Origin: an uncultured Prevotellaceae bacterium
GTDB taxonomy: Bacteria; Bacteroidota; Bacteroidia; Bacteroidales; Bacteroidaceae
Assembly: GCA_900318775.1 (NCBI GenBank)
Contig: ONLY01000003.1
Span: 186,001-250,000, forward strand
Direction of reading: 5' to 3'
DNA length: 64,000 nt
The notes under the pieces were generated by a model. The model saw only the letters and a list, made by a program, of their open reading frames with translations. It had not been told where the DNA came from and searched no databases. Position 1 is the stretch's first letter. Every line of letters begins with the position of its first letter. This document shows positions 9,649 through 46,514 of the stretch, one piece after another. The translations under genes and the position numbers were made by a program.

Positions 9649-9713
9649 CGGTGTGAGTCACACCGGGGGTGCCGGTCTGACTCAGACCGAGGGTGTCGGT
9701 GTGACTCACACCG
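9649..9713. repeat. Three 24-bp tandem units, each a 17-bp palindrome
   Basis: Palindromes CGGTGTGAGTCACACCG (9649-9665), CGGTCTGACTCAGACCG (9673-9689) and CGGTGTGACTCACACCG (9697-9713) have centres exactly 24 bases apart. The second carries a compensatory change on both arms (GTG/CAC to CTG/CAG). The array lies between two convergent genes. Confidence 0.9.
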
Positions 9714-9768
9714 CCAGATGAGTACAAGAAGAACCTATTTTGAGGTATTGCTTGCAAGCATAAAAACG

Positions 9769-11118
9769 TTACTTCTTCTTCATCTTCACAATGGCGACAG
9801 GACGGAGAATGTCGGTGCTCTTAAAAGACCATCCAGACGAAACTTGACCAGCAGAAAACTGACCGACTCTCAACTTACCATCTGAATTAATAAACAAATA
9901 CTTGGCATCAGTATCCAGTTTAGATATTTTATTCTTATTCTGACGAACAAGTTCTATTTCTTCATCATTCATCAATCGCCAACCTTCTATACCGCTCACA
10001 GCACACTCAGGCATAGCGTTTTCAATAGCGCTCAAGGCAGTTGCTTCATTTACTCCATTTTCATAAATCGTTGCTTTTTGCTTTAAAGACAGCAACAGCA
10101 CCTCTGAAATACCTTCATTTTCGCTCACAGAGAGCACGTAACAGCCTTGATAAGTACTTCCTGCCTCTGGAATGTTATCTACCGATACGTAGTCCGTAGG
10201 AGTGGAAGGCGTATTCTTTTCAGCATTATCTCCCGATGGCTGGGTGCCCTGCTCGTTGAAATCAAACGAAATAGTCTTCTCCTCGTTCCATTTTGCACCT
10301 GTTATCGTACCCGTCAGGGTCACTCCGATAGCCTCAGTGTATTTGCCCTCGATATTGATGACATCGCCTGCCACAAATGGTTCTGAAGTGTTGTAAGTGT
10401 AGCTTGTAGTGCCTGTAGGCTTGATGATGTTGACCGTAATGGTGGCAGAATTGGCAGAAGGGGGCAACAGATAGTGTGAGCCAGAGAAACTCCATGTGCG
10501 CCCGTCTTCCTGCTTCGTCAAGGCAATCGTTTCTGTGCCTAATTCATCCTTGTAGGAAACTCCCTCTAAGTTCTTCCACAATGGCGACAAAGTGACAGAT
10601 ACCGCTGTAGCAGCAGAAGGTATGCTCTGCAAAACTACACTCTGCAAGCGCATCACCTTTCTTTCCATCGAGAGGGTCAGCACATTGGTTCCTCCGTCCA
10701 CCAGCACCACATGGCTCTTGGCCGCCATCAAGTCAGCATGGCTCTTTCCTTCGCGCAGCGTGATGCTCATAGCAGAAGTAGCGTTCGCTTCCGAGGGCAA
10801 GATGTAATTTTCGGATGTGGCACCACCGATGGCATACACATCATAGCTTCCCTCGGTCAAGGAGATGTTCAAGGTTTGGGTTTCATCAGCAATGGTTTGC
10901 AGCGAAACACATTTTTCACCATTGAACACATACACGTTGACCGGATAACTGACAGTTACCTCATCAGCAGTTGTTGATGTTCGTGTACGTACCTGAAGCA
11001 ACGAATTGGCTTCCTTCTGAATAATTGCTGCTGTGTCTTGTGTTAGTTCTGATTGCTCACATGAGAGCATAGTACATGATGCTATTAGCAGTAATAGCTT
11101 TCCATTTACTCTATTCAT
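9769..11118 (-). CDS. Fimbrial-anchor-like (Mfa2/FimB-type) lipoprotein
   Basis: A 449-residue lipoprotein with signal sequence and lipobox TMLSCEQ. The middle region has long beta-rich stretches (YPVNVYVFNGEKCVSL, LTEGSYDVYAIGG, RKVMRLQSVVLQSIP) like the fimbrillin-A-associated anchor and fimbrillin-like families that build Bacteroidota surface fimbriae. The last 100 residues (GIEGWRLMNDEEIELVRQN through ILRPVAIVKMKKK) resemble a small DUF1566-type domain, which is unusual behind a fimbrillin-like region. No other fimbrial genes are adjacent, so it may be a stand-alone surface lipoprotein. Family placement is by overall pattern. Confidence 0.6.
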   Translation of the reverse strand: MNRVNGKLLLLIASCTMLSCEQSELTQDTAAIIQKEANSLLQVRTRTSTTADEVTVSYPVNVYVFNGEKCVSLQTIADETQTLNISLTEGSYDVYAIGGATSENYILPSEANATSAMSITLREGKSHADLMAAKSHVVLVDGGTNVLTLSMERKVMRLQSVVLQSIPSAATAVSVTLSPLWKNLEGVSYKDELGTETIALTKQEDGRTWSFSGSHYLLPPSANSATITVNIIKPTGTTSYTYNTSEPFVAGDVINIEGKYTEAIGVTLTGTITGAKWNEEKTISFDFNEQGTQPSGDNAEKNTPSTPTDYVSVDNIPEAGSTYQGCYVLSVSENEGISEVLLLSLKQKATIYENGVNEATALSAIENAMPECAVSGIEGWRLMNDEEIELVRQNKNKISKLDTDAKYLFINSDGKLRVGQFSAGQVSSGWSFKSTDILRPVAIVKMKKK

Positions 11119-11247
11119 TATCCTTTATAATTTAGTACAGATCGTTATTGGGGAACAAAATTAAAACGAAGAAAGGAATAAAAAAAAACCTTCCAACCTT
11201 TTTTGAAGAAAAAAGAAAAAAAAGAACAACATAAAACAATTATTAAG

Positions 11248-11255
11248 TATCTTTG
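11248..11255 (+). promoter_or_regulatory. -7 box of the recX promoter
   Basis: TATCTTTG fits TAnnTTTG; no good -33 TTTG is seen. Transcription would begin near 11262, which rules out the upstream TTG at 11253 as the recX start. Confidence 0.45.
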
Positions 11256-11279
11256 CCTAAAAATAAAGGGATGCCCTAT

Positions 11280-11771
11280 ATGGAAAAAAGGAAACATATC
11301 TACACAGAACAAGAGGCATACTTAAGGCTTTCCACCTTATGCGCTATGGGTGAACAGTGTGAGGAGGATGTAAGGCGCAAGATGAAACGCTGGGAAATAG
11401 CTGACAGTGTGGCTGAAAAAATCGTTGAACGGCTGGTGAAGGAGCGGTTCATTGATGAAGCACGTTATGCCAAAGCTTTTGTGAGAGACAAGTTTCGCTA
11501 CAACCATTGGGGCAGAGTGCGGATTGAGCAAGAGCTGAGAATGCGGCACATAGCCCCAAAGCATATAGAGATGGGACTGGAAGAACTGAAGGAAGAAGAT
11601 TGTCTTGACACACTCAAGGAAATCATCCAAAAGAAGCGCCCCATCGTGAAAGGAAAGAGTGAATATGAAATAAAAGGCAAGCTGATTCGCTTCGCCCTGG
11701 GACGAGGATTTGTGATGGAGGACATTCTTAAAGTGGTTGGAGATCTGGACGATTCCGCCCCTACTTACTAA
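11280..11771 (+). CDS. recX: Regulatory protein RecX
   Basis: RecX binds RecA filaments and limits recombination and the SOS response. This 163-residue protein has the three-helix-repeat pattern of the family, with KMKRWEIADSVAEKIVERL, FIDEARYAKAFVRDK and the conserved WGRVRIEQELRMRHI. Two ATG codons are possible (11271 and 11280). I prefer 11280 because an AGGG stretch lies 9 bases before it, while it directly abuts the first ATG. comF follows 28 bases downstream on the same strand, suggesting co-transcription. Confidence 0.88.
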   Translation: MEKRKHIYTEQEAYLRLSTLCAMGEQCEEDVRRKMKRWEIADSVAEKIVERLVKERFIDEARYAKAFVRDKFRYNHWGRVRIEQELRMRHIAPKHIEMGLEELKEEDCLDTLKEIIQKKRPIVKGKSEYEIKGKLIRFALGRGFVMEDILKVVGDLDDSAPTY

Positions 11772-11799
11772 CAACAACTGTTACTTTACTTTAACAATC

Positions 11800-12540
11800 T
11801 TGCCTATTTTCCGTGAATCATTAGATATTGTGTTTCCACGCACATGCATGATGTGTGGAAACAGGTTGGCGGCACACGAACACTTTCTGTGCACCTCATG
11901 CGTTGTTCATCTGCCACTCACCCAATCTCATACTGTTGAGCACAATCTTATCGAAAAGAAGTTCTGGACACGTTTTCCCGTGAAGAGAGCTGTGTCAATG
12001 TTCCATCACGACGGAGAAAGCACACGCAGACTGCTCTACCAAATCAAGTATCACGCCCATCCTAAACTGGCTGTCTATCTCAGTTCCCTCTATGCCAAGG
12101 AACTGAAGGATTATGGATTCTTCGATGATGTTGATGTAATTGTTCCGCTGCCACTTCACTGGAGGCGGCAAATGAAACGAGGATATAATCAAAGCCATTA
12201 TATAGCACGCGGCATTCAGCAAGTCACCCATATTCCGGTGATGAAGAATGTAGTGAAGCGAATCAGGAATAATTCTTCACAAACTCGACTGAATGCTCGG
12301 CAACGCATAGAGAATGTGGAAGGCATCTTTCAGCTGAAGCATCCAGAACTCATAGCAGGAAAACATGTGCTGCTGGTAGATGATGTGACGACTACAGGAG
12401 CCACACTTTCTTCATGCGCAAAAGAATTGGCTAAGGCACAAGGTGTGAATATCTCTGTGCTCACGCTGGCTGTTGCTTCAAATAGCGCATTACCTTTTGT
12501 CCAAAACATGTATCCTCAACCTCTAAGCATGCCTCTTTAA
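11800..12540 (+). CDS. comF: ComF-family phosphoribosyltransferase-like protein
   Basis: A 246-residue ComF/GntX protein. An N-terminal zinc-finger-like motif, CMMCG...CTSC, is followed by the amidophosphoribosyltransferase-like domain with VPLPLHWRRQMKRGYNQ and the PRPP-loop motif LLVDDVTTTGAT. In naturally competent bacteria ComF acts in DNA uptake; its biochemical role is unknown. No ATG fits the expected N-terminus, so I place the start at TTG 11800, which gives MPIFRESLDIVFPRTCMMCG; an in-frame TTG at 11737 would overlap recX. The 3' end overlaps ribD on the other strand by 80 bases. Confidence 0.85.
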   Translation: MPIFRESLDIVFPRTCMMCGNRLAAHEHFLCTSCVVHLPLTQSHTVEHNLIEKKFWTRFPVKRAVSMFHHDGESTRRLLYQIKYHAHPKLAVYLSSLYAKELKDYGFFDDVDVIVPLPLHWRRQMKRGYNQSHYIARGIQQVTHIPVMKNVVKRIRNNSSQTRLNARQRIENVEGIFQLKHPELIAGKHVLLVDDVTTTGATLSSCAKELAKAQGVNISVLTLAVASNSALPFVQNMYPQPLSMPL

Positions 12541-13423
12541 GCCTGGGAGCTTTCACTTGTCCATGAATGTCTATAGCCCCTTTCTCCACATAACACTCAT
12601 CCCATACGCCGCTGTCAATAAATGACTGAAGCAGTTGTGCGCCTCCTTCAACCAAAAGCGTCTGGATGCCGTCTTCATACAGTTGATTAAGTATGTTATC
12701 AACACTCGTTGATTGTATCAGCTGGAAACCTTCAGGCAATGCTAATGACTGTGATGAGGCAACATATCTCTTCGGTGAATTGCCAACCCACTCACGAGTG
12801 GTCAAACTGGGCTTATCTATTTCAAATGTTTTTCTGCCTACCAAAATAGCCTGGTGTTCTGCCCTGCGCTTATGACAAAGCATCTGTGTATAAGTGTTGG
12901 AAATCTTTCCATCTATATATCCATCAGCAGACTCAGCCCACTTCAAGGTGATGTAAGGACGCTTCTTGCCATGATAAGTCATGAAGCGCTTGTTTAATGA
13001 TATGCACTCACTTTTCAACACCCCAACGACAACTTCTATTCCAGCATCTCTTAACTTCTGAATACCACGTCCTTGAACCTTAGCAAACGGATCTTGACAA
13101 CCTATCACACAACGCTTAAAACCTTTACTTATCAACAGGTCTGCACAAGGAGGTGTCTTTCCATAATGCGAACAAGGTTCCAAACTAACGTAAATAGTAC
13201 TTTCTTTCAACAGATGCTCATCTTCTTTCTTCACAGATGCACAAGCATTTACCTCAGCATGCCCCTCACCACACCGAATATGATAGCCTTCACCTATGAT
13301 TTTACCGTCATGAACAATCACAGCACCTACCATAGGATTCGGTTGTGCATTCTTTTCGCCATTCCTAGCCAACTGAATGCACCTACGCATATACTTTTCA
13401 TCAGTTGTCAACACACTATTCAT
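12461..13423 (-). CDS. ribD: Riboflavin biosynthesis bifunctional deaminase/reductase RibD
   Basis: RibD carries out the second and third steps of riboflavin synthesis: deamination of the pyrimidine from GTP, then NADPH-dependent reduction of its ribose. The 320-residue protein has the deaminase zinc site HAE (His55, Glu57) with PCSHYGKTPPC (Cys84, Cys93) at the N-terminus. The reductase domain starts near RPYITLKWAESADGYI (about 156) and includes the LLVEGGAQLLQSF motif. It is somewhat shorter than the 360-residue E. coli protein. No other rib genes are present here. Its last 80 bases overlap comF tail to tail. Confidence 0.93.
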   Translation of the reverse strand: MNSVLTTDEKYMRRCIQLARNGEKNAQPNPMVGAVIVHDGKIIGEGYHIRCGEGHAEVNACASVKKEDEHLLKESTIYVSLEPCSHYGKTPPCADLLISKGFKRCVIGCQDPFAKVQGRGIQKLRDAGIEVVVGVLKSECISLNKRFMTYHGKKRPYITLKWAESADGYIDGKISNTYTQMLCHKRRAEHQAILVGRKTFEIDKPSLTTREWVGNSPKRYVASSQSLALPEGFQLIQSTSVDNILNQLYEDGIQTLLVEGGAQLLQSFIDSGVWDECYVEKGAIDIHGQVKAPRLKEACLEVEDTCFGQKVMRYLKQQPA

Positions 13424-13554
13424 AACTTATCAACTCTTATAAACATGGGCAAAATTACACATTTAGTTTTGAAAATAAAAGAAACCAAATCAATTTAAGT
13501 ATCAAACTATTGCAATACAAAACAGAATCACTAAATTTGCAATCATAAACAGGA

Positions 13555-13599
13555 TTATCAACAGGGTTATTACAACCTTTATTCACAATATTATCAACA
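13555..13599. promoter_or_regulatory. Cluster of three DnaA-box-like 9-mers
   Basis: TTATCAACA (13555-13563), TTATTCACA (13579-13587) and TTATCAACA (13591-13599) each differ from TTATCCACA by one base and share one orientation. A further inverted match, TGTCAATAA, lies at 13902-13910, and AT-rich sequence follows. This could be part of a replication origin or a DnaA-regulated promoter; no dnaA gene is nearby. Confidence 0.35.
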
Positions 13600-13604
13600 A
13601 CAAA

Positions 13605-13796
13605 ATGAGTGACGGTAATTTCAATAGACAGCTGCTCCCAAAGACAGAACTCTCATCTGGCATCCGTGCAGGCAAAGCACAAATGCGAGTAAAGGCTGAA
13701 CACGCTTTTGAAGAAGTGGTCAACAGTTTCATTTTGAATGATAAAGAATTGAAAAAAGCTATGAAAGAACGTTTCATGGAACTGCTGAGACAGTGA
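13605..13796 (+). CDS. Small conserved Bacteroidota protein, function unknown
   Basis: A 63-residue protein with no signal peptide or membrane segment. It is charged, and its second half is probably helical (RVKAEHAFEEVVNSF and KAMKERFMELLRQ). The N-terminal phrase NFNRQLLPKTELSSGIRAGKAQMR resembles small hypothetical proteins I recall from Bacteroidales. No function is known to me. It stands alone, 5 bases after the DnaA-box-like cluster. Confidence 0.65.
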   Translation: MSDGNFNRQLLPKTELSSGIRAGKAQMRVKAEHAFEEVVNSFILNDKELKKAMKERFMELLRQ

Positions 13797-14475
13797 TCTA
13801 TCAAGCAATAATCACTATAGTTAAAAGAAGTCTGATCACTTAGTATCAATGAGAAGAAAGACTATAGAATTCTAGCCATATTCTCACGTTGTTCACAACT
13901 CTGTCAATAACTATTTCATAACTTACTAACAACTTTTAATAACTTTTCTTGCTTTTCTACATCATCTTTATACCATCCGCTTTCATCGAAGAACAAAGAA
14001 AAGTTATTATTTTTTTTCAATTATTTTTCAATACCAAAACACGTATTTCTCAACAATCTAAATAACTGAAAAACAACACACTTAAAATACTTTTCAACAG
14101 AATCAACAGCATATTAACATCATCATATAACTAGTTCTTAAATAAAAGAAACAATAATATATATTGATGATGTGTGAGAGATGAGTGGTGAAAAAATTGG
14201 TGGTAAAAGAAAAAGATTGTAAATTTGTGGCGACAAAGTAAATGCTCACCTCTAATTAAAGATGAACAGCAATGTCAACCACAGGATGGATGCGGTGAAT
14301 AAGGTGAGCGTGAAACGACCAGGGAGGAGAAGTTGTACATAGTCTTCTTTATCTCTACGTCCCTATTTCTTCTTCATCATAGATGCTTTCACTTAAGATT
14401 CTTACTATGAATTAGTGAAATAGCATGCCCATGTTTTTCAGGGAATATTTGATTCAACAATTTTATTTGCAAGAT
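13797..14475. other. AT-rich intergenic region, no gene seen
   Basis: About 680 bases with no credible ORF. It is rich in A/T runs and in CAACA-type words (TTTTCAACA near 14093, TCTCAACA near 14048). Stops occur in all frames. No RNA gene is recognised in this part. Confidence 0.5.
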
Positions 14476-14501
14476 TTGTTGTTTTGTATGTAAAAGTTTT
14501 G

Positions 14502-14509
14502 TACTTTTG
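14502..14509 (+). promoter_or_regulatory. -7 box of the leader RNA
   Basis: TACTTTTG fits TAnnTTTG. TTTG copies lie 15 and 23 bases upstream, neither at the ideal 19-21. Confidence 0.4.
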
Positions 14510-14854
14510 CAACAGAAGAAATAATTTAACCAAAGTCAAATCTTCAAACCAATTGCCAATGAAATAAACAGAAAAACGCTAACCTACCTGTCAGATGAGG
14601 CTAGCCTCACGAGGTCACAGAGTATTAATAAACAAATTTATTAACTTACAGAATAGCGTTTCTGTTCGTACTTATAACATAGATTGAGCTTTTGCTCTTG
14701 TTCTTTAATCTCGAAACCGCCAAAACTTCGAAACGGAAAGAATAAGTTGTCGGAAGTTCACGCTCAATGGGCGTGGGCTATTCGTGCTTGTTTCCGTAAT
14801 GGTTACTTGGCGGTACCAGAGATTTGATAAGCATCGAACGGTTCCGCCTTTTTT
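14510..14854 (+). ncRNA. Structured leader or small RNA with competing terminator
   Basis: This 345-base untranslated stretch is rich in inverted repeats. The 5' half has ACAGAAAAACGCTA (14568-14581) paired with TAGCGTTTCTGT (14654-14665), enclosing the palindrome GAGGCTAGCCTC (14597-14608). The 3' half is nested: ACCGCCAA (14716-14723) with TTGGCGGT (14807-14814), inside it ACGGAAA (14733-14739) with TTTCCGT (14791-14797), and inside that CACGC (14759-14763) with GCGTG (14771-14775). A terminator hairpin shares bases 14809-14814 with the outer stem, so the two exclude each other. The following lipoprotein ATG is 6 bases after the T-run. It could be a regulated leader or an independent small RNA. 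I vaguely recall similar sequences in other Bacteroidota but cannot name a family. Confidence 0.55.
14809..14854 (+). terminator. Intrinsic terminator within the lipoprotein leader
   Basis: GGCGGTACC (14809-14817) pairs with GGTTCCGCC (14840-14848) with one mismatch, followed by six T. It overlaps the 3' strand of the long-range stem at 14807-14814. Confidence 0.75.
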
Positions 14855-14860
14855 ATACCA

Positions 14861-15400
14861 ATGAAAAAAATATTATTTTCGTGCTTAATAAGTACTATTT
14901 GTTTAATCCTTCTTTCGTGTACAAACACCAATACGTCATACACTGTTACAGAAGAACCAAATTTATTTGAAGAATGGTTTGAAAAGTATCAAGAAGATAA
15001 CCCTACTTGGACACGTAGTATAGAGGGACATAACAAACTCAAAGAAGCATTTAGTAACGAAGTAAAATCTAATATTGATTTCGCAAAGTCCTTGTGCTCT
15101 GGAGAAATTTTCATATCCGAATGCATTTCGTCTTATGAAAGAAAAGATGGTGAATATGGCGGCATTTGGGCATATGTTTATAAAAAAGAAATAAAATTGA
15201 AGAATCCTTTATATAATGGTCAAAAAACCGTAGAGGTAGCATATGAGATAATTTCTATGATACCCTCGACCAAATCTCACGATAATCCTTTTATTGATAA
15301 TGCTAACTATTCGGATACTTTCAAACCATACCATTCTATGGATTATGATGGGACATTGAATTTAGGTAGCTTTATCATAACTCGTAAAGATAATGAATAG
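14861..15400 (+). CDS. Lipoprotein of unknown function
   Basis: A 179-residue protein with an AT-rich coding sequence unlike the flanking housekeeping genes. Residues 1-20 form a lipoprotein signal ending in LILLSC, so it should be anchored to a membrane on the outside. The rest is charged and soluble, and no domain is recognised. It starts 6 bases after the leader RNA terminator and overlaps the next gene by 8 bases (ATGAATAG), so the two form an operon. Base composition and isolation suggest recent acquisition. Confidence 0.75.
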   Translation: MKKILFSCLISTICLILLSCTNTNTSYTVTEEPNLFEEWFEKYQEDNPTWTRSIEGHNKLKEAFSNEVKSNIDFAKSLCSGEIFISECISSYERKDGEYGGIWAYVYKKEIKLKNPLYNGQKTVEVAYEIISMIPSTKSHDNPFIDNANYSDTFKPYHSMDYDGTLNLGSFIITRKDNE

Positions 15401-15812
15401 TAAGAAGATGGGAAACAAAAGATGGTTAGCATATGCTAATACAGACAAATGTAACCACATAAAGGCTTTGAAAACCTTAGGCTATATTAGTTGGAGTAAT
15501 GATAGTCGAATATTTGAGGTTGGCGATGTTGTTTTTCTGTATATAAGACAATATAGGAGAGTTATTTATAAAACTCGTGTTGAAAGAATAAACATTTTAA
15601 GAGAGGACACTGATTTTTGGAAAGAACAATTTCAACAGGAAGTAAAAAATCAATTAACAAGTCGATTGAGACTTGAAAAAATCTATAAAGGGGAAGAATT
15701 GAATGAAGAGAAACTATCCAATTATGGATATGATGGAAAGAGTATCCAACGCCCATCATCTAAAAATGAAAGACTCTTGTCATATATTGAACAAGTCTTT
15801 GATAGAGTTTGA
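15393..15812 (+). CDS. EVE/PUA-like domain protein
   Basis: A 139-residue protein made of one domain that I read as EVE-like: RWLAYANTDKCNHIKALKTL, then the SWSN and FEVGDVVFLYIRQYRRVIYK strand pattern, and a C-terminal region ending SKNERLLSYIEQVF. EVE domains read modified bases (such as 5-methyl- or hydroxymethylcytosine) and are usually fused to restriction nucleases or found in defence clusters. Here no nuclease domain is present. ATG 15393 overlaps the upstream stop; ATG 15408 (MGNKRW) is an alternative start. Strong A/T bias matches its partner. Pairing with a lipoprotein is unexpected, and the function is unknown. Confidence 0.6.
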   Translation: MNSKKMGNKRWLAYANTDKCNHIKALKTLGYISWSNDSRIFEVGDVVFLYIRQYRRVIYKTRVERINILREDTDFWKEQFQQEVKNQLTSRLRLEKIYKGEELNEEKLSNYGYDGKSIQRPSSKNERLLSYIEQVFDRV

Positions 15813-15848
15813 ATGATATCTTGGGACTATTTAAATAGGATAATAAGT

Positions 15849-15882
15849 AAAAGTGCAGCAGACAAAAACTGCTGCACTTTTG
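15849..15882 (+). terminator. Terminator after the EVE-like gene
   Basis: A 13-bp perfect stem, AAAAGTGCAGCAG / CTGCTGCACTTTT, with a 7-base loop. Confidence 0.75.
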
Positions 15883-15986
15883 CCAAATGCCAAATAAGTG
15901 TGAATGGGTGGTTTATATATTTTATAGTTCCTCTCCATTTACTTCTATCCCTATTAGAAATATAGAAATGCATTTTTGAAACTATA

Positions 15987-16491: not shown

Positions 16492-16583
16492 AGTCATGGT
16501 ATAATGAATACGGCACTCATCATATAATGAATACGTCAGTCATGATAAAATGGATGTGCCATACATGCAGTTGGGAAAACGGG
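16492..16583. repeat. 23-bp tandem array, three clear units and one weak
   Basis: Units begin at 16492 (AGTCATGGTATAATGAATAC...), 16515 (ACTCATCATATAATGAATAC...), 16538 (AGTCATGATAAAATGGATG...) and 16561 (ATACATGCAG..., weak). Spacing is exactly 23 bases. It lies about 200 bases upstream of groES. Confidence 0.85.
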
Positions 16584-16693
16584 TGACCTGACATGAAGGT
16601 TGCGAAACCATGAAGCATTCGGAGGACTACAAGACGGCTTCAACTTCATTTTGTCACCCATTATGCCACTTTGTCACCCTTGTCAGTCTTTTT

Positions 16694-16781: not shown

Positions 16782-17054
16782 ATGAACATTCAACCATTAG
16801 CAGACAGGGTGCTGGTACTCCCTAAACCTGCTGAAGAAAAAACAGTCGGTGGCATTATTATCCCTGATACAGCAAAGGAAAAGCCTCTGCAGGGTGAAGT
16901 TGTCGCTTGTGGTAACGGTACTAAGGATGAGGAAATGATTGTCAAGGTTGGCGATCAGGTTCTCTATGGCAAGTATTCAGGCACTGAACTCGAATATGAG
17001 GGTGTGAAGTATCTGATGATGCGCCAGAGTGATGTATTGGCAATTTTGAAATAA
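16782..17054 (+). CDS. groES: Co-chaperonin GroES
   Basis: A 90-residue protein that forms the heptameric lid of the GroEL folding chamber in the cytoplasm. The start [12 protein letters not shown] and the mobile-loop region [18 protein letters not shown] (about 18-35) are canonical, as is the end ILK. groEL follows after 150 bases, a wide gap for this operon, containing two inverted repeats. Confidence 0.98.
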
Positions 17055-17151: not shown

Positions 17152-18836
<1,685 letters not shown>

Positions 18837-29303: not shown

Positions 29304-29462
29304 TTTGCGCTCCTTCGGGGGAACATTTGCGCTCCTTCGAGGGAACATTTGTGACACCCTCGAGGTAATACTTGTAACACACCCTATGTAACACTTGCAA
29401 CACACCGTATGTTACACCTGTAACACACCGTATGTTACACTTGTAACACAATCGCTGCGAAG
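29304..29462. repeat. Seven-unit tandem array, 22-23 bp period
   Basis: Units begin at 29304, 29326, 29348, 29371, 29394, 29417 and 29440. The first two read TTTGCGCTCCTTCG..., the third is intermediate (TTTGTGACACC...), and the last four read C[TC]TG[TC]AACACA.... Some units are palindromic (TGTAACA-7-TGTTACA). An inverted relative, GTGTTACAA, follows at about 29465. A direct repeat CATTTGTGGCGC occurs at 29480 and 29564. The array occupies the divergent gap between leuS and the GH43 gene. Confidence 0.88.
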
Positions 29463-36905: not shown

Positions 36906-36960
36906 ATAGATAAGCAGGAGGCGAGTTCTCATCAGAACTCGCCTCCTGCTTATCTATGCT
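36906..36960. terminator. Strong terminator after the esterase gene
   Basis: A 24-bp perfect stem (36906-36929 with 36934-36957; core GCAGGAGGCGAGTTCT) with a 4-base loop, then GCTTTT. Confidence 0.85.
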
Positions 36961-37067
36961 TTTATCTTTATCCTATTTTTTTATGCTTTCTTTTGAAGGA
37001 TGTTCAAGCGGAACGGAATAGTACTTTTAATATGGTATGAACGGCTTGTTGGCTCAATGCACGAGAG

Positions 37068-37136
37068 TTGTCGAGCAAGCCACCATTCGGTTATCGAGCA
37101 AGCCGCTCTTGTAAGACCGAGCAAATCATTCCTGCA
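37068..37136. repeat. Three 23-bp tandem units
   Basis: The word TCGAGCAAGC begins at 37071 and 37094, and its variant CCGAGCAAAT at 37117, exactly 23 bases apart. Units are TTGTCGAGCAAGCC..., TTATCGAGCAAGCC... and AGACCGAGCAAATC.... The array lies between convergent genes, just past the regulator's stop. Confidence 0.85.
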
Positions 37137-37174
37137 AGGTTGGAAATGATTTATCCAATGCGTTTCCGCCTGTC

Positions 37175-40100: not shown

Positions 40101-41137
40101 ATAACCACCAGTCCCTTTTGCAGGAAGACAGCGATGACGTTGCCCTTTTTGTCTTCCTTCATGGCCATCACCTTGCCGTAGCTGAGGTCCGACTGTGCCA
40201 GCTGGCTGTAGAGCGGGCGCAGGGTGTATGCGTTTCCCTCCTTTACATATTCCCAGATGCCTCGTCCGTCGGTGCCGATGAGGATGCGTTGGTCGTGTGT
40301 GCGGATGATGGTGCGGATATTCATGCCCATAGCGGGGATGTCCGATACCTTCACCATGTTCTCCCGCTCATCGTAGGTCAGCAAGCCATGGTTTGTGCCG
40401 ATAAGCACTCCCGTCTTCGTCTCCAGCAGGCTTGTCACGGTGCATCCTTCCAGCATCGCTGCAGCATCGGCTGAGTATTGTAGTGTGCGGTTTTTGAACG
40501 TCTTCAGGTCTACACAGATAAGAGGCATTCTGTTGGTGGTGGCCCACAGGTTGGCATGCTTGTCAATCAAGGGGCGGTTGACGAATCCGTCGTGGGTTTG
40601 GCTGTTGACCTTGTTCGACAGCAGCGTGTCCACCTTCATGGTGGTGGTGTTGATGACAAAAGAATTGAAGCCGTCCGTTGTCACCAGCTTGTGATGGGGT
40701 TTGGGGTAGTCGATGATGGCATTGACGGCATAGCCATAGATGCTGTCTTCGCGTTCGTTCAGGAAGAAGCGGTGAAACTCGGCAGAGCGGGCATTCAGCA
40801 GGTAGAGTCCGTGCGACGTACATATCCAATAGTGGTTGTCCGTTGCTTCCTGCACCCGGTAAGAGTTTTGGAAGAGCTGTCGTCCTTCCTTGTTTTCAAT
40901 GGGGAAATAGTAGAAGCGCCAGCCGTCGAAGATGCCCAGCGTGTTGGCTCCCGACACCCACACGAGCCCGCGTGAGTCAATGTCCACGCTGTGGCAGTTG
41001 TTGGTCTTCAGTCCATGTCGGTTGGTATAGAGTCTGGCCACTTGCGCCAGGCTTTTTGTGGGTACGAGCAAGGCAAGCAGTAGCACAGCCAGTGCCCAGC
41101 ATCTTCTTGGTGCGGTAAAGTTAAAATTCATATTCAT
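37175..41137 (-). CDS. Hybrid two-component system regulator (HTCS)
   Basis: A 1320-residue one-protein sensor and activator in the inner membrane. A signal sequence at 1-31 leads to a periplasmic sensor of two-bladed-propeller (Reg_prop) repeats, then a Y_Y_Y domain (about 690-760). One membrane segment at about 768-788 (WAYLVYAALLLAIAYVLY) follows. Then come HisKA (about 820; phospho-His in SITHELRSPL), HATPase (NLLSNAFKFTPEGG, GSGIGLNLVYELV), a receiver (about 1058-1175; phospho-Asp in VVTDYRMP) and an AraC-type DNA-binding domain (about 1205-1300). HTCS proteins sense oligosaccharides and switch on neighbouring degradation genes. This one probably controls the convergent GH43-GH5-esterase run, the divergent gene at 41461, or both. 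Confidence 0.93.
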   Translation of the reverse strand: MNMNFNFTAPRRCWALAVLLLALLVPTKSLAQVARLYTNRHGLKTNNCHSVDIDSRGLVWVSGANTLGIFDGWRFYYFPIENKEGRQLFQNSYRVQEATDNHYWICTSHGLYLLNARSAEFHRFFLNEREDSIYGYAVNAIIDYPKPHHKLVTTDGFNSFVINTTTMKVDTLLSNKVNSQTHDGFVNRPLIDKHANLWATTNRMPLICVDLKTFKNRTLQYSADAAAMLEGCTVTSLLETKTGVLIGTNHGLLTYDERENMVKVSDIPAMGMNIRTIIRTHDQRILIGTDGRGIWEYVKEGNAYTLRPLYSQLAQSDLSYGKVMAMKEDKKGNVIAVFLQKGLVVIPPQSDCFHYHPISPLANGQNSTCVTSMAIDEQKNYWVATDGCGVFTTNGMRLATARPVNNGLRSLLVQDVKVDKHGTVWVACYGGGVQYLKDGRWTDEGLSSLGRQELAMTMHYDAAHDRLLVGTNGSGIFQINAANHTVEKVELPFVYNQWISSVLRDRRGTLWMATSMGLFHHNAKTKKHGEIKFNDERICNASAIYEDGNLILIACNRGLVIYNVKTEQIKHITQAEGLSCSDIRAITTTTHHIWLATRTNIASIDKDTYEVRNFSSFNGYEIGEFHRNSSIKPGMGFILFGGDNGIICFTPKLISNRPTEIKHIYFTNFTTPLHTEEMDANIFYAKKVCLEHDNSSFTINFSSAELGDPERIRYDYILEGHESQWHTDTPTPSAHYSSLPPGNYKLRVRAYPEDNPAACTENTISIHVESPWYATIWAYLVYAALLLAIAYVLYQQIKARKRQRELLRQSAESARMKEAKLRLFTSITHELRSPLTMIESPLKQLMEEDRNPDHQSLYAVMRRNCDRLLGIVKQITDIRKIDSGQLELKLVECDYVTYSNRVFEQFKGVASVKNISFEVTHKEETLPMMLDMTHFEKIITNLLSNAFKFTPEGGRVAVTSGIAGNEVELTFFNSGSRFNDEDLAHLWERFYQGSAGTDATGSGIGLNLVYELVKMHHGNIKVKNLEGNENEQGVEFTLHFPYFATPSPAATESSSKATLLLVDDDTELVHYMSSQLEKDYNIITAFSGENGWKQVLSQRPSAVVTDYRMPNGNGMELCQRIKGNPDTDNIPVIMLTGEGDETLQLHSLNVQVDHYLEKPVNIVMLRSALQQVLRVRENMRNKARRAEVVDEMPKPVMENADDKLFSRVNDIIKKHLDDSEFSVQQLSEEVGISRVHLNRKMKEHYGISPNVFIKSFRLKQAAYLLAYNRVNISEVAYKVGFSSHSYFTTSFHEYFGMSPKEFVAFYSAEENAEALQKLLE

Positions 41138-41183
41138 CGTTATCCAGATGGTTAATGAACACGTGTTAGTTAGACGTTATGCG

Positions 41184-41191
41184 GCAAAGTT
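41184..41191 (-). promoter_or_regulatory. -7 box of the HTCS gene
   Basis: TAACTTTG on the minus strand (41191-41184), about 47 bases before the start codon; no clear -33. Confidence 0.45.
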
Positions 41192-41367
41192 AGGCATTTC
41201 TTCGCAATGTATCATCTTTTAAATAGAAGAAAAGTAACAAAACTGCGTAAAAAGCCTTGTTTCTGTGCCCTGTTGATACATTCTCTTTCACTTATGTAAC
41301 ACGTTTTGGGCGTTTTTTGTTATTCTTTTAAGAAAACGAACAAGGTCTTTCGATGTTGAAAAAGCCG

Positions 41368-41399
41368 CTTGCTCATATTTATAATAGTATCTAATTTTG
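41368..41399 (+). promoter_or_regulatory. Promoter of the 1145-residue secreted protein
   Basis: CTTG (41368-41371), 20 bases, TAATTTTG (41392-41399), 61 bases before the ATG. The 323-base divergent gap from 41138 to 41460 otherwise holds no gene. Confidence 0.6.
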
Positions 41400-41460
41400 C
41401 GACGGATAACTTTCAAACCACATTATTATTATCTGTATATCTAATCAAAATCCTAATCGT

Positions 41461-44400
41461 ATGAAGAAGATTTTACTTTCAGCATCATTGCTCCTTGCGG
41501 GCATGATGACGTCCTACGCTCAGGTGCCAGATGCATCGCAGTGGACGAAAGGGCAGGAGATTACTGAAGCAGTTAACTTTGGTAACCCCAGCTTCGAAAA
41601 CGATCCTTTTGACTATTGGCAGTTGGAAAGTTCAAAAGGTTCTTTTACAAAAACAGGCGCTAGCCTCTTTGAAGTCTTTGATGGTGCCGATGTGGACCTC
41701 TATCAGTATGTGCAGCTTCCTGCTGGTATGTACCGTGTAGAGTGTCAGGGTTACTACCGTAACGGTGAGTCTTGGGCCTATGACCCTAACTCTTATGCCA
41801 ATCAGTTCATGAACGGAACTGGCACTGAGGAGTGGACTAACAACGCTCTGCTTTATGTGCAGAACGGTGCCTATGACATCACCAGTGAAGAATTTACTCC
41901 CGCGCGTACATTTAAGTGTCCTTTGATGCCACGTCTGTTCCCAGAACAATACGAGCAGCTTTATGAGGATATGGACTACCACATGGAAGGCGAAGAAAAG
42001 AAGTATGATGCAGGTTGGAATAGATCTGACGGTCAGTATACCCAGTGCGGTGGCCGCTGGGCTCCATGTTCTATTCCTGGCACACAGGTTTGGTTTGGTA
42101 AAGGTTTCTATATGCCTTATGTAGATGAGGATTATGAGGACACCAAGATTAAGTACAACACCACTTCTTTCTTCGTTAGCGAAGCTGGCTATGTGAAGAT
42201 TGGTGTGTCAAAGATTGCGGCAAGAGGTGCTGACTCATTCATCGTGACCAACTTCAAGCTGTACTACGATGGTGAAGTTGATCCTGAAACCGCTGAGCTC
42301 TTGGCTCTCCAGGAGGAAGTACAAGAGTACTACGACAAGGCGAAGAAGCTTGAAAGCAAGTATACTGAGGGTATGATTTACTCTCTCATCAACGATGCTA
42401 TTAGTGAATTCGAAGATGAGTATGGCACTCCATCTGATCTTGAATCTGAAGACGACTGTGCAGCTGCAAAGTTGGCTTTGATTTCTCTTATTAATGAGAT
42501 TGAAGCAGCTGAAAAAGCTTATGCTCAGCTCCAAACGTTGGTTCCTGCTGCCAAGAATCTGTATGAGACTACAGAGTATCCTGGCAAGGCTGCATATGGA
42601 ACAATTATTCAGGCCGCTGAAAATTGCCTTGATCCTAACTATGAGATGGAAGGAGGCGAAACTTTCGATTTCTTCCAGGATGCATTGGATAACCTGATTG
42701 CAGGTCGTCTCGATTACCTGATGACTCAGGAGAAAGTGAACGGTGCAATTGATTTGTCTATCATGATTGCAAACCGTTTCTTCACCAACGAGGCAAACAA
42801 CCCTGTTTGGAACCCTGAAACTAACTTCTGGGAGTACAGTCAGGACTTGAAGGATGCTAATCCTGAGTTCTTCAATGCCATGGAATTTAATGGTGAAGAT
42901 GCGACCATGAAGGCACAGAGAGCTGTCATTTCTGGCGAGGTGGTACTTTCAAGTTCAGACAACACTAAGCCATTCCAGTGGTATAAGACCGGAAGCGGTG
43001 GTCCAGGCTGGGACGTTTACTATGACCACAAGATGACCTCTTGTAAGTCATGGGCACCAACTCCAACAAGTGGCGTTTCTGTGATTGGTCAGTATCTGAA
43101 GGGTCTGCCAAACGGTTTCTACTCTCTCACAGGTATGGCTGAGGCTTGGACTAATGAAGGTGTAAATGAAAGTGACAACCACTTCATCATCAGAACTAAC
43201 GAAACATCTGCTCGTTCAGAGCGTGCAGAACCACGTGCATGGTGGAATGGTAACACAAAGGATTCTTGGAACACTCTTTCAACTGGCATGGTTGAAGTAA
43301 AGGACGGTGACCTCTGGGTTGAAGCTTCTGTCAATGGTTTCTACTCTATCACAGGCTTCCAGCTCTTCTACTATGGTGAGACTCCTGATTTCGCAGCTCT
43401 CTTGCAGCCAATGATTGACAAGGCTAAGGAGAACATCGAGGACAACCTCGTTTGGCAGGGCGATATCGCTAAGGCTAGTGCTTTACTTGATGCAATTGAT
43501 TTGACTAAAGTAACTGATGGTGATTCTTATAAGGCAGCTCAAGAGGCTATTGACGCAGCTAATGAATATGTTGCTACAGCTTCTGCTGTTGTGAAGAACT
43601 TTAAGGGTGCTGATAACTTCGCTGCACTTGGTGAGAAGTATGACGAAGGCACTCCTGAAGCAGATATTCTTGCTCTTGCTTGGATGGAGACTTTGGCAAT
43701 TGGCGACGGTGACAACGATACTTATGAGCTCGCCATTCAGAACGATAAGGACTACGCTGCTTACGCTCATTACTTCGATTTCCGCTCTGCAATGGGTAAC
43801 CTTGCATCTGATGCGGGTGTTGCTGCTGTTCTCTCTGACCAGAACACTTATCTCTCTGCAAACTTCGTTCATGATGATGAGATGGCTGATCTTGAGAAGG
43901 CTCTCGCATTGCCATACAACAAGGCTCTCCTTGAATCACTTGGCGCCGCTAATGCTTCTGAAAAGAATCCAGTTGACATCACAGCTCTCCTCATCAACCC
44001 TGCTTTCGACGAAGGCGCTAAGGGCTGGACAGGCAACCCAACTGTAACATCTGGTGAGGCTCTTCCTGAGGAACTCGGCGCAGCTGAGATGTGGAACGTA
44101 AACTTCGATGTAAATCAGATTATCTACGCTCTCCCTGCAGGTTTCTACAAGGTTGAGTGCCAGGCTCTCTACCGCGATGCTGGTGACGCAAAGGACGCAT
44201 TCACTAACTGGGAATATAATGCAGGTGGATCCTTCGAAGATTGGGAGAATAAAAATGCTAAGCTCTATGCTAACGATAATGACACTACTATTGTTTCTAT
44301 CGCATCAGAAATGTTCACAGAGCGCTCTATGACTGCTTACCAGAACAAGACGGTTAAGCTTGAGGAAGGAGATGAACAGGGTAACGACGTTTATGCTCCA

Positions 44401-44898
44401 GCTTGGAGAATTATGTGCACTGAGAAGGAAGGTGATAACTTTGTTCTTCCTGCAGTTCTTCCTGCAGATGCTCCTCAAGGTCTTGCACCAGAGCAGTATA
44501 TTGTCAGCGGTGTTACCGACTGGTGGTGGGATACCGAAATTGAAGACATGGAACAGTTCTACTACTACCCAGCTTCTCTGATGGGTGCTACTCGTCGCTT
44601 CAAGAACTCTCCTAACGCTTACAAGAACGAAGTAGTGACTAAGGTAGAAGAAGGTGGTTCACTCAAGCTTGGTATCAAGAAGGAAGTGCAGGTTACCAAT
44701 GACTGGGTTGTATTCGACAACTTCAAGCTCTACTACCTCGGCAGCGAGGCTCCTACTGGCATCAACGCAGCTGCTGCAGAAAAGGCTGCTGTTGAAGGCA
44801 TCTTCTCTCTGGACGGTGTTCAGCAGAGCGAGCTCCAGAAGGGCGTCAACATCGTGAAGAAGGCTAACGGTGAGGTGAAGAAGATCTTCAAGGATTAA
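41461..44898 (+). CDS. Large secreted multidomain protein, function unknown
   Basis: A 1145-residue protein with signal peptide 1-20 (MMTSYAQ). Three beta-sandwich-like blocks share a pattern: residues about 35-275 (NPSFENDPFDYWQ, LPAGMYRVECQGYYR, FKLYYDGE), about 480-645 (LPNGFYSLTGMAEAW, FQLFYYGE) and about 840-1095 (NPAFDEGAKGWTGN, LPAGFYKVECQALYR, FKLYYLG). Helix-rich acidic spacers separate them (about 280-470 and 650-830). The blocks look like galactose-binding/CBM-type folds. It ends with the tail motif FSLDGVQ...GVNIVKKANGE. Codon choice is strongly biased, as in groEL, which predicts high expression. No catalytic motif is recognised; a surface glycan-binding or structural role is a guess from architecture and from the divergent HTCS gene. 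Confidence 0.7.
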   Translation: MKKILLSASLLLAGMMTSYAQVPDASQWTKGQEITEAVNFGNPSFENDPFDYWQLESSKGSFTKTGASLFEVFDGADVDLYQYVQLPAGMYRVECQGYYRNGESWAYDPNSYANQFMNGTGTEEWTNNALLYVQNGAYDITSEEFTPARTFKCPLMPRLFPEQYEQLYEDMDYHMEGEEKKYDAGWNRSDGQYTQCGGRWAPCSIPGTQVWFGKGFYMPYVDEDYEDTKIKYNTTSFFVSEAGYVKIGVSKIAARGADSFIVTNFKLYYDGEVDPETAELLALQEEVQEYYDKAKKLESKYTEGMIYSLINDAISEFEDEYGTPSDLESEDDCAAAKLALISLINEIEAAEKAYAQLQTLVPAAKNLYETTEYPGKAAYGTIIQAAENCLDPNYEMEGGETFDFFQDALDNLIAGRLDYLMTQEKVNGAIDLSIMIANRFFTNEANNPVWNPETNFWEYSQDLKDANPEFFNAMEFNGEDATMKAQRAVISGEVVLSSSDNTKPFQWYKTGSGGPGWDVYYDHKMTSCKSWAPTPTSGVSVIGQYLKGLPNGFYSLTGMAEAWTNEGVNESDNHFIIRTNETSARSERAEPRAWWNGNTKDSWNTLSTGMVEVKDGDLWVEASVNGFYSITGFQLFYYGETPDFAALLQPMIDKAKENIEDNLVWQGDIAKASALLDAIDLTKVTDGDSYKAAQEAIDAANEYVATASAVVKNFKGADNFAALGEKYDEGTPEADILALAWMETLAIGDGDNDTYELAIQNDKDYAAYAHYFDFRSAMGNLASDAGVAAVLSDQNTYLSANFVHDDEMADLEKALALPYNKALLESLGAANASEKNPVDITALLINPAFDEGAKGWTGNPTVTSGEALPEELGAAEMWNVNFDVNQIIYALPAGFYKVECQALYRDAGDAKDAFTNWEYNAGGSFEDWENKNAKLYANDNDTTIVSIASEMFTERSMTAYQNKTVKLEEGDEQGNDVYAPAWRIMCTEKEGDNFVLPAVLPADAPQGLAPEQYIVSGVTDWWWDTEIEDMEQFYYYPASLMGATRRFKNSPNAYKNEVVTKVEEGGSLKLGIKKEVQVTNDWVVFDNFKLYYLGSEAPTGINAAAAEKAAVEGIFSLDGVQQSELQKGVNIVKKANGEVKKIFKD

Positions 44899-44921
44899 GC
44901 TTTAACCACTCACATACTCTT

Positions 44922-44957
44922 GGGGGCTGAACCACACGGTTCAGCCCCCTTTTTTTT
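44922..44957 (+). terminator. Intrinsic terminator
   Basis: A 12-bp perfect stem, GGGGGCTGAACC / GGTTCAGCCCCC, with a 4-base loop and eight T. Confidence 0.92.
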
Positions 44958-45007
44958 CTGTTAACTCCCGTGTGTATAGTATAACAATCTGTTTTTTTGT
45001 TTGTCTT

Positions 45008-45039
45008 TTTGTGGTTCAGCCTCTTTTTTGTTACCTTTG
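45008..45039 (+). promoter_or_regulatory. Promoter of the 401-residue secreted protein
   Basis: TTTG (45008-45011), 20 bases, TACCTTTG (45032-45039). Full consensus. Confidence 0.8.
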
Positions 45040-45105
45040 CACGAATTTTGAAAAGGATTAGCTTTTGGAAGTTGAAACACTTAATATAACTAAATACAAT
45101 TGCTT

Positions 45106-46311
45106 ATGAGGAAATCATTACTCGTTTTTCTTGCCCTGGCTCTTGCTTTGGGCGTACAGGCCAAAGAATGGCAGTGGGGGAAACCTACTTGGAATGTTGC
45201 TAATGGTAGAGTGTATGAAGATGTATTCGAAGTGAATGCTGACGGCATCATTCTCACATACCCCAACCCTGGCAAGTATATACTAACAGGCATGAACGTG
45301 CTGTCGGTCAGCTACAACCTCTATGTGGACGATGCTACAGAGCCTATTGAGCTGTATGCGTCTGCGCCTCGTCAAACGACAGAAGTGAGTTTCAACTACG
45401 ACTGGGTGGAGGGTCACTCTTACCGCATCGAGACCACGGGTGCTGCCTTGTGCCAACTGAACTTGGCTACCTTCAAGACAGACACGCTGTCGCTCAATAA
45501 GACGGACTCCTACACCCTCAGCTTCACCATCAAAGGTCCTGATGTGGTGGATGTCATCAACGTGGAGGGCACTATGGCACTGAGCATTGTGGACCAAATG
45601 GCTACTCCAACCTTCTCTCTTATCGATGTCCCCAGCATCTGCGAGAAGCTGGGCATCAACAGCATTGACGAGGCTGAGCTCTATGGCTTGAATCCTAACG
45701 GCTCTTCCAACATCTTCTTCTTCGACCCTCGCTTTGACTTCTGGCGCGATGCTGATGGAGGTCTCACAGTGTGGGGCGGTGGCGCTGGTGGCGGTGTCTA
45801 TGACGTCCTTGGCCATAATCCCTATCCTGCTGTCTATAGCATCAAGCTGAACGAGACGTGCGACTCTGTCTTCTACTATTTCTATGACTATTGGCGCGAT
45901 TATGACCCCGATGAACCTTCAGAGGTGCCAGGCTCTGGAACTGGTGCCAAGCGCCGTGCACCCGCAACCTCTTACCACAACGTGGTGTGGGACTGGGAAT
46001 GGGTGGACGAAGCAGGTCAGCCTCAGGTGACACAGCGCATGCGCAGCTATCGTGTGGACGAAGGCGAGGACTACAAGGGTGGCTTTGCTATCCGTAAAGA
46101 CAAGAAGGTGGTGTTCATCAATGCTACACTCCACTTCGTCTCTCAAGAGGCTTATGCACAGTATCAGGAAACACCCGTGGAGACTATCGAGGCTGCTCCC
46201 GTTGCTGCCGATGGCATCTACAGCCTGAGCGGTGTTCCTCAAGCTACTTTGAAGAAGGGCTTGAACATTGTCCGCAAGGGTGGTGAAGTGAAGACCGTGC
46301 TGGTGCCGTAA
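45106..46311 (+). CDS. Secreted protein, possibly DUF4859-like
   Basis: A 401-residue protein with signal peptide 1-19 (LALALALGVQA). A region around 145-180 (NVEGTMALSIVDQMATPTFS, SICEKLGIN) and the Trp/Gly-rich part (WRDADGGLTVWGGGAGGGVYD) recall DUF4859, a small extracellular domain of Bacteroidota carbohydrate loci. I am only moderately sure. It has no catalytic motif. The end carries the tail YSLSGVPQ...GLNIVRKGGEVKTVLV, like its upstream neighbour. ATG 45106 is preferred over a TTG at 45100. It has its own promoter and terminator. Confidence 0.65.
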   Translation: MRKSLLVFLALALALGVQAKEWQWGKPTWNVANGRVYEDVFEVNADGIILTYPNPGKYILTGMNVLSVSYNLYVDDATEPIELYASAPRQTTEVSFNYDWVEGHSYRIETTGAALCQLNLATFKTDTLSLNKTDSYTLSFTIKGPDVVDVINVEGTMALSIVDQMATPTFSLIDVPSICEKLGINSIDEAELYGLNPNGSSNIFFFDPRFDFWRDADGGLTVWGGGAGGGVYDVLGHNPYPAVYSIKLNETCDSVFYYFYDYWRDYDPDEPSEVPGSGTGAKRRAPATSYHNVVWDWEWVDEAGQPQVTQRMRSYRVDEGEDYKGGFAIRKDKKVVFINATLHFVSQEAYAQYQETPVETIEAAPVAADGIYSLSGVPQATLKKGLNIVRKGGEVKTVLVP

Positions 46312-46334
46312 TCACTGAGCCGCATCATTAATAT

Positions 46335-46380
46335 AACCGGAGGTCGTGTCTGTTATTATTGACACGACCTCCGGTTTTTT
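46335..46380 (+). terminator. Intrinsic terminator
   Basis: A 16-bp perfect stem, AACCGGAGGTCGTGTC / GACACGACCTCCGGTT, with a 10-base loop and six T. Confidence 0.92.
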
Positions 46381-46447
46381 GTTGGGAAGGGGAAAGCCTC
46401 CTCGGTTTCTCTGTTTAGCTTCCTTTTTTTACTCCCCTTTCTTCAAA

Positions 46448-46514
46448 ACCGACGTCGTCGAGGTCGGTTCACCGATGTCGACGATGTCGGTCAATCGATG
46501 TCGACGACATCGGT
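46448..46514. repeat. Three 23-bp tandem units, each an imperfect 21-bp palindrome
   Basis: Units begin at 46448 (ACCGACGTCGTCGAGG...), 46471 (ACCGATGTCGACGATG...) and 46494 (ATCGATGTCGACGACA...), each ending TCGGT, exactly 23 bases apart. They lie between convergent genes, like the arrays at 9649 and 37068. Confidence 0.88.

Follow-up and report, generated by a model that had tools for sequence, protein, structure and literature searches.

This genome of a rumen member of the Bacteroidaceae carries, in the gaps between genes, many short stacks of mostly mirror-symmetric sites, set at a near-constant pitch of 23–24 bases irrespective of their sequence; they may be docking platforms for a putative DNA-binding factor. 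In the window, the whole 64,000-nucleotide stretch of DNA that was analysed, we examined five tandem arrays (Table 1), each scored against dinucleotide shuffles of its own gap (150–300 per gap). Arrays 1 (score 25.6), 5 (26.4) and 3 (58.8; its 22-bp part continues into a 23-bp part) were not matched in any of 300 shuffles, and the best segment of array 2 (24.6) in none of 150. Array 4 was absent from the TRF output at score 30 and scored only 13.8, yet 0 of 300 shuffles of its gap scored as high. The five arrays are real, as the initial annotation had stated, and these shuffles together with those of the genome-wide sample rule out a chance origin. It had also placed all five in gaps and three of them between convergent genes, and both statements were confirmed (5/5 in gaps; arrays 1, 4 and 5 between convergent genes). 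Array 2 sits between two + strand ORFs, 15393–15812 and 16782–17054, and array 3 between leuS (−) and a GH43 gene (+).

Table 1 Tandem arrays of the window, with an outer arm and neighbouring hairpins
Feature	Position	Strand	Description
Array 1, family F1	9649..9713	.	Three CGGTSTGA-N-TCASACCG units, 7-nt spacers, period 24
Left outer arm of array 1 (CTTTCAGCACCTCGAAAA)	9631..9648	.	
Terminator-like hairpin and T-rich tail, after the left gene and before array 1	9584..9624	+	By eye
Array 2	16494..16567	.	Period 23; palindromy not significant (p 0.22)
Array 3, first part	29304..29351	.	Period 22
Array 3, second part, family F3 (TGTWACA-nn-TGTWACA)	29334..29450	.	Period 23
Array 4, family F5 (CGAGCAAGCC..)	37067..37138	.	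Period 23, weak
Terminator-like hairpin before array 4	36908..36957	+	By eye
Array 5, family F2 (ACCGAYRTCGWCGAYRTCGGT, 2-nt spacers)	46448..46514	.	Three units, period 23
Left-gene terminator-like hairpin with T run, ahead of array 5	46338..46380	+	By eye
Hairpin following the right gene (− strand), opposite side of array 5	46592..46627	−	By eye

Across 839,853 sampled bases of this genome (G000), a tandem segment was found in 58 of 333 gaps and in none of the shuffles. Its period was 23 bp in 22 gaps and 24 bp in 20, so that 42 of the 58 fall at these two lengths and the proposed excess at 22–24 bp holds genome-wide with no broad spread of periods. Arrays are enriched in convergent gaps (14/42 arrays vs 54/333 gaps, p 0.003) and not depleted in divergent ones (8/42 vs 75/333). 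One period in unrelated and partly non-palindromic sequences could point to a mutational mechanism by which a fixed length of 22–24 bp is duplicated in gaps free of selection against it, for example by slippage or template switching at hairpins. The excess is almost limited to gaps (period 23 or 24 in 2 of 2675 coding blocks), which speaks against such a process, though selection on coding sequence could account for it.

The nearest named relatives of this genome are uncultured rumen Bacteroidaceae, not Prevotella in the narrow sense. For related genomes the earlier interpretation was supported in part: loci pooled from other Bacteroidaceae favour 22 bp (20 of 61 matches, with one run of N among the 20), whereas a 200-kb sample of Segatella baroniae has no excess (3 matches in 74 gaps, one at 24). 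Bacteroides ilei gave 3 matches in 81 gaps, two of them at 23, and Escherichia coli K-12 had a tandem segment in 0 of 80 gaps (200 kb); other families of the order yielded no 22–24 bp array in just 64 gaps from 10 genomes. The possibility that leuS is a special place was rejected: of 74 loci whose gap measures at least 40 b, 8 have a period 22–23 array upstream of it, and the rate elsewhere in these loci is similar.

Arrays 1, 3, 4 and 5 do not stand alone: their units were found again elsewhere in the sampled genome, and the unit of array 1 has 108 matches in the genome. Most units consist of a quasi-palindrome followed by a short spacer, and they fall into dispersed families. In the clearest families (F1, F7, F8, and F2 when read as 17-mers), spacers of 6 or 7 nt separate 17-bp quasi-palindromes (8+1+8), and the centres are therefore 23 or 24 bp apart; the F3 unit is 16 bp plus 7. 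Palindromy was not significant for F4, F5 and array 2, and only 18 of the 42 arrays of this genome were significant singly (p<0.05). The earlier statement that different arrays have nothing in common is right when unit sequences are compared pair by pair in most cases; arrays 1 and 5, however, have a common outer-arm family consensus, GCTTCCTGCACCTC..aaaa / tttt..GAGGTGCAGGAAGC, around different cores.

Our preferred but tentative interpretation, nearly as likely as not, is that the arrays are multi-site platforms for putative dimeric factors that bind DNA sequence-specifically, and that the period reflects the spacing from one dimer to the next. The arrays are copies of several dispersed intergenic element families, and each unit would be the site of one candidate dimeric factor. 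Three or more dimers would then sit side by side, ~2.2 helical turns apart, with their packing setting the pitch, and families with different half-sites would for that reason keep it. More speculatively, the platforms may exert their effect as DNA, close to the ends of genes, with local topology, insulation of neighbouring transcription units and nucleoid anchoring as candidate roles. For the platforms we count the period peak at 23–24, the conservation of F1 arms, the F1 flavours shared within species, the reuse of sites, the convergent-gap enrichment, and the unmatched F1 halves with hairpin pairing not kept at stem position 5. Against them we count the non-palindromic F4, F5 and array 2, the absence of array 4 from a sister genome, the RNA folding of arrays 1 and 5, Segatella baroniae with no period excess, and a site-reuse control that is genome-wide only.

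In five pairs of F1 arrays compared with the sister genome (G010), the arms carried 0 substitutions in 240 positions vs 11 in 85 for centres and spacers (Fisher 2.4e-7). Length measurement alone does not hold, because the arm sequence of F1 is far more conserved than the spacers; the initial annotation's fixed length without a fixed sequence was in this respect not supported, the arrays being copies of dispersed families. This arm conservation speaks against duplication of a set length, which is highly improbable as an explanation, even though whole units are gained or lost between sister genomes and the pooled other Bacteroidaceae favour a different length. Elements of one species have the same F1 flavour, as seen from 1–3 elements per genome: AGGT ends occur in G013, and 6-nt spacers in G007, G019 and G023. 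On the platform reading, half-site flavour would shift as one within each species, since it tracks the putative factor.

At three gene-end sites, arrays of different families occupy the corresponding place in different species, again unlike what duplication of a set length would give. With G010 left aside, 29 relatives have at least 120 b of gap behind the gene, and 13 of the 29 carry a 22–24 bp array at these three sites, vs 32 of 162 comparable gaps of this genome (p 0.002; sister species included, control from genome-wide rates), and 11 of 27 after two sister pairs were collapsed (p 0.011). The array-5 site contributes 4 of 9 (one array exactly at threshold, in a 1493-b stretch), the array-1 site 2 of 8 and the third site 7 of 12. 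The count leaves out loci with smaller gaps, loci in which the gene could not be located, and L294, for which the end of the gene had been parsed wrongly, and takes an F8-like array of G003 (score 9.6) as a miss; the third site has 25 loci, from 28 genomes listed with the gene. One further site, chosen as a control, holds a dispersed repeat of its own.

A broader form of the platform reading is less probable, and we consider it rather doubtful: a fixed-pitch platform common in Bacteroidaceae, with lineage-specific putative dimeric factors and different half-sites but one centre-to-centre measure (23–24 bp in this genus, 22 favoured in the pooled others), and with gene-end sites that keep the platform while the family is exchanged. 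If arms are binding sites, chromosomes in this family, which is abundant in gut and rumen, would each carry dozens of ordered platforms for an undescribed DNA-binding factor. A pitch common to unrelated sequences, together with family exchange at one place, would be an architecture that outlives its sequence, which is unusual.

It is also conceivable, if rather unlikely, that the arrays work as RNA hairpins, either as bidirectional terminators or as 3'-end stabilisers, with the flanking A and T runs making the outer hairpins intrinsic terminators both ways. A runs and T runs do border F1 (its 3' side is T-rich), the RNA folding of arrays 1 and 5 is far stronger than that of shuffles (z −7.2 and −5.8), convergent gaps are enriched, and the array at the third site begins 9 nt past the stop codon in G007 and G057. 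However, divergent gaps are not depleted, arrays 2, 3 and 4 show no folding advantage over shuffles, and other terminator-like hairpins, seen by eye, already precede arrays 1, 4 and 5. Moreover, F1 stem position 5 is C–C or G–G in 84 of 165 units and wobble-like in only 2, a mismatch in half of the units that is left uncompensated, and F1 halves are not matched within units. The outer arms are complementary as a consensus, but individual copies lack the covariation expected of one closed outer stem in G000 (0.445 vs 0.470 shuffled, 24 elements) and in G010 (0.495 vs 0.570, 10 elements). In 18 elements of other genomes the value was 0.605 vs 0.499 (0/1000 shuffles), which speaks for pairing in a set that mixes species flavours. 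A strict terminator finder (F1 4/20, control 60/264) misses terminators visible by eye, such as that before array 1, and its counts were therefore not used as evidence.

Half-sites within F1 follow an order. All 24 sampled three-unit F1 arrays of this genome have exactly two rarer half-sites, and in this genome and its near relatives nearly every spacer lies between one common and one rarer half-site; the rule of two rarer half-sites fails in nine more distant genomes. Fold energy, which the hairpin explanation would invoke, does not account for the arrangement (mean rank 0.416 among 15 arrangements, 34 arrays, P 0.06). Inversion of segments within arrays was rejected as its source, as spacers do not flip with the half-sites (read, not scripted). 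If the broader fixed-pitch reading were true, the pairing of one common and one rarer half-site around spacers would encode direction or stoichiometry.

The initial annotation knew of no named element of this kind, but one exists. The closest named element is BrickBuilt of Porphyromonas gingivalis, a member of the Bacteroidales, described in PMC4596501 as a minisatellite-bearing MITE with 23-nt tandem units in 19 dispersed intergenic copies, a strain-variable unit number, defined flanks, and one copy by leuS. By that account its units follow each other without spacer, up to 22.8 of them, between leader and tail segments of up to ~300 nt, with an IS5-type terminal repeat, GAGACCTTTGCA. The intergenic tandem periods of 23 (F2, F3, F5) and 24 (F1) are alike, and array 3 also adjoins leuS; unlike BrickBuilt as described there, F1 and F2 have 3–4 units within 18-bp outer arms. 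A long leader or tail was not seen in F1, the one family concerned here, where flank conservation fades after ~18 bp. With at most 2 mismatches, GAGACCTTTGCA has 8 matches in the window (6.7 expected), and not one of them lies less than 700 b from an array.

That the arrays are BrickBuilt-like minisatellites, either free or carried on a MITE, mobile, with a tandem core that grows and shrinks and no host function, is unlikely. The copies are dispersed, and F1 and F2 have common outer arms around different cores, comparable to the terminal repeats that, according to the same paper, BrickBuilt has in common with PgRS/464, a P. gingivalis MITE whose tandem core likewise lies inside common terminal arms and has a 41-nt unit (PMC4596501). 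Whole units also differ between sister genomes: G010 keeps one unit of three in one F1 array, the F3 unit number in the second part of array 3 differs there, and array 4 is missing, so not every array is maintained. On the other side, of the 11 arrays with flanks located in G010, 10 occur in that genome, one reduced; the outer arms, not the F1 arms, are what drifts between genomes; and in the sampled genome the outer arms were not accompanied by a transposase, their sole intergenic match outside the listed arrays being part of an array cut by the end of a stretch. If the arrays were minisatellites after all, BrickBuilt would exemplify a habit more widespread in the Bacteroidales.

REP/BIME elements, which are linked to RAYT transposases, are described in PMC3733652 as short palindromes scattered through intergenic DNA, where the neighbouring genes are often convergent or unidirectional. 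The arrays resemble them as short dispersed intergenic palindromes and differ in the fixed 23–24 bp pitch across different families. A REP/RAYT origin was rejected: PF01797, the profile for the Y1 tyrosine transposase, has 0 matches in this genome (91% complete) vs matches in 5 of 14 control genomes, and the GTAG/CGTC end tag is not in the F1 unit consensus, which starts CGGT and ends ACCG (F1 only). A CRISPR array was likewise rejected, with spacers of only 2–7 nt, not of a repeat-like length, and Rfam gave 0 matches above the gathering threshold in the window. MatP and SlmA, proteins of the nucleoid and of segregation, have conserved short operator-like palindromes spread over the chromosome, mostly as single sites; the arrays here differ in placing three sites at a fixed pitch. 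The array junctions also resemble tyrosine recombinase core sites, with inverted arms, a 6–7 nt centre and one asymmetric position; spacers differ within an array, which argues against recombination, and the genome holds four PF00589 genes.

The five intergenic tandem arrays of the window are genuine, as the initial annotation held: dinucleotide shuffles of its own gap never reached the score of any array (300 shuffles each, 150 for array 2), and four are listed by Tandem Repeats Finder, the remaining one, array 4, being weaker. A sample of 839,853 bases from the source genome (G000; 2.62 Mb in 41 contigs, 91% complete), which includes the window at C21:186001-250000, was scanned for ungapped tandem segments with periods of 12-45 in all gaps no shorter than 60 b. 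Genes were called with a simple hexamer model, which is imperfect and missed ORFs around array 2, leaving it in a 5010-b gap. A segment was found in 58 of 333 gaps, with period 23 in 22 and period 24 in 20. No segment passed after shuffling (three shuffles per gap), and 13 of 2675 coding blocks did, two of them at period 23 or 24. The period excess is genuine in this genome.

Applied to a 200-kb sample of E. coli K-12, the same scan passed 0/80 gaps; it passed 3/74 in Segatella baroniae (periods 14, 24 and 30), 3/81 in Bacteroides ilei (two at 23), 28/184 at the genus's leuS loci (nine with period 23, two with 22 and one with 24), 5/130 at Phocaeicola/Bacteroides loci (two with 22 and one with 23) and 61/252 at other Bacteroidaceae loci (20 at 22, including one run of N). 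The shared period originally claimed stood in the source genome, and the Segatella baroniae sample showed no excess; the favoured value varies with lineage, and only some relatives showed the excess.

Arrays and other repeats (window positions unless a sampled locus, L, or source-genome contig, C, is named)
Feature	Position	Description
Array 1 (family F1)	9649-9713	CGGTSTGA-N-TCASACCG, three units, 7-nt spacers
Array 2	16494-16567	
Array 3 (F3)	29304-29450	TGTWACA-nn-TGTWACA; a 22-bp array running into a 23-bp array
Array 4 (F5)	37067-37138	
Array 5 (F2)	46448-46514	ACCGAYRTCGWCGAYRTCGGT, 2-nt spacers; reads equally as 17-mers with 6-nt spacer GTnnAC
Short tandem repeat	47872-47918	9/18 bp (TTCTAGATATTCTAG), gap past thioredoxin-like gene
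Tyrosine recombinase-domain gene	L290:1456-2670 (G000:C25:107353-108567)	F2 array about 40 bp upstream
Further dispersed element	L015:6061-6150; G000:C25:25384-25473	long inverted repeat around AAGTGCCCCACATCGGT, in gaps; matches also in other genomes of the genus
Tandem repeat upstream of leuS	L146:6-109	35 bp, GGCGGGCACGGTGACCCGCCCCTACGGCGTGGAAT
Direct repeats	L097:9848-9877	7/14 bp, TTCTTCA kind, frequent in relatives' gaps (also L099, L105, L137, others)

An F1 unit consists of two half-site arms around a centre base. The unit of array 1 has 108 genome matches at up to two mismatches and its reversed control none; with one mismatch allowed, it was found in 9/24 other genomes of the genus and in 0/16 outside it. 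The arrays had been described as having nothing in common, which fails for arrays 1 and 5, as F1 and F2 have common outer arms. Five further intergenic positions of the sample match the 11-mer of array 4 with no more than one mismatch. In the sample's gap survey, arrays with periods of 22-24 numbered 20 for F1, 7 for F2, 6 for F3 and 9 for the rest. Copies within a family are not independent, and with that proviso their units averaged a palindromy of 6.19 versus 3.83 for column-shuffled units, 18/42 arrays being individually palindromic at p<0.05 by this test. F4, F5 and array 2 did not significantly exceed column-shuffled units.

Both flanks of 11 of 45 own arrays were located in the 728 kb used of the sister genome, G010; ten arrays were present there and the eleventh was reduced to one unit of three. 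Array 4, below the survey threshold, was missing together with about 150 bp. Array 3 differed by whole units. Across five F1 array pairs, 0/240 arm positions differed, versus 2/15 centre and 9/70 spacer positions (Fisher 2.4e-7). The array architecture is genuine, and the half-sites are selected in the main family. Elsewhere the F1 design persists with altered flavour: G013 has AGGT ends, and the spacers are 6 nt long in G007, G019 and G023, judged from 1-3 elements in each genome.

The rarer half-site (CGGTCTGA) occupied exactly two of six places in 24/24 three-unit F1 arrays of the source-genome sample (variance 0 versus 1.29 shuffled); at least one array outside the sample holds three. Pooling G000, G010, G012 and G057 gave two in 35/38 arrays and three in the others. 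In nine genomes that are more distant, 17 F1 elements gave counts of 0 to 3, like shuffles, so the rule is local. The rarer half-site stood on both sides of a spacer in 0/55 F1 elements. Fold energy does not account for the arrangement.

We compared three sites near gene ends across species. The array-5 site carries F2 in G010, F1 in G057, F7 (CGATGTCC/CGGAGTCC half-sites, period 23) in G060 and G044, and no array in G019 (also seen as L074) or G042. The array-1 site carries F1 in G010, F7 with matching outer arms in G060 and F8 (CGCACCCGACGGGTGCG) in G057, where the downstream neighbour differs; six further genomes with enough room have no array. The third site, at a conserved gene's 3' end, carries F1 flavours in G010, G060, G007 and G057, F3 in G045, G012 and G013, another 23-bp family in G047, an F8-like array below threshold in G003 and none in G022, G019, G008 and G043, the remaining genomes having short gaps. 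With G010 left out and sites pooled, 13/29 relatives with room had a 22-24 bp array, compared with 32/162 comparable gaps in G000, 24/145 in G010, 3/74 in G012 and 9/93 at genus leuS loci (p 0.002 against the highest rate; 0.011 after collapsing two sister pairs). For F1 and for F3, the families at one site could also reflect vertical descent.

RNA folding was strong for arrays 1 and 5 and not for array 2, the second part of array 3 or array 4. Across 165 F1 units, each of the seven stem positions other than 5 is paired 133 to 165 times; at position 5, 84 units show a C-C or G-G mismatch and 2 a wobble-like pair, and the two halves of a unit are not matched to one another. This pattern suits a candidate binding site that accepts G or C at position 5 more than it suits a hairpin. 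Inspected by eye, arrays 1, 4 and 5 lie past the terminator-like hairpins of their neighbours, and in both G007 and G057 an array at the third site begins 9 nt past the stop codon. Convergent gaps are over-represented (14/42 arrays versus 54/333 gaps, p 0.003); divergent gaps are not depleted (8/42 versus 75/333). Putative binding platforms are the best reading of the arrays, one we hold tentatively and at slightly less than an even chance.

The initial annotation knew of no named element of this kind; judging from the accessible part of its description, BrickBuilt (PMC4596501) is the closest, and its terminal repeat was not found at the window arrays. The accessible portion of a MITE review mentions BrickBuilt twice (PMC10969869), and REP definitions were taken from excerpts of PMC3733652. 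In the literature searched, which covered few subscription papers, we found no description of several families in Bacteroidaceae having a period of 22-24 bp in common. According to the sections available of PMC4596501, the 2003 P. gingivalis genome paper notes repeats of 41, 23 and 22 nt, and P. gingivalis BrickBuilt_12 adjoins leuS. Upstream of leuS in several genera, 22-23 bp arrays were seen in 8/74 loci (L067, L073, L077, L106, L119, L131, L133 and L143), and their window counterpart is array 3.
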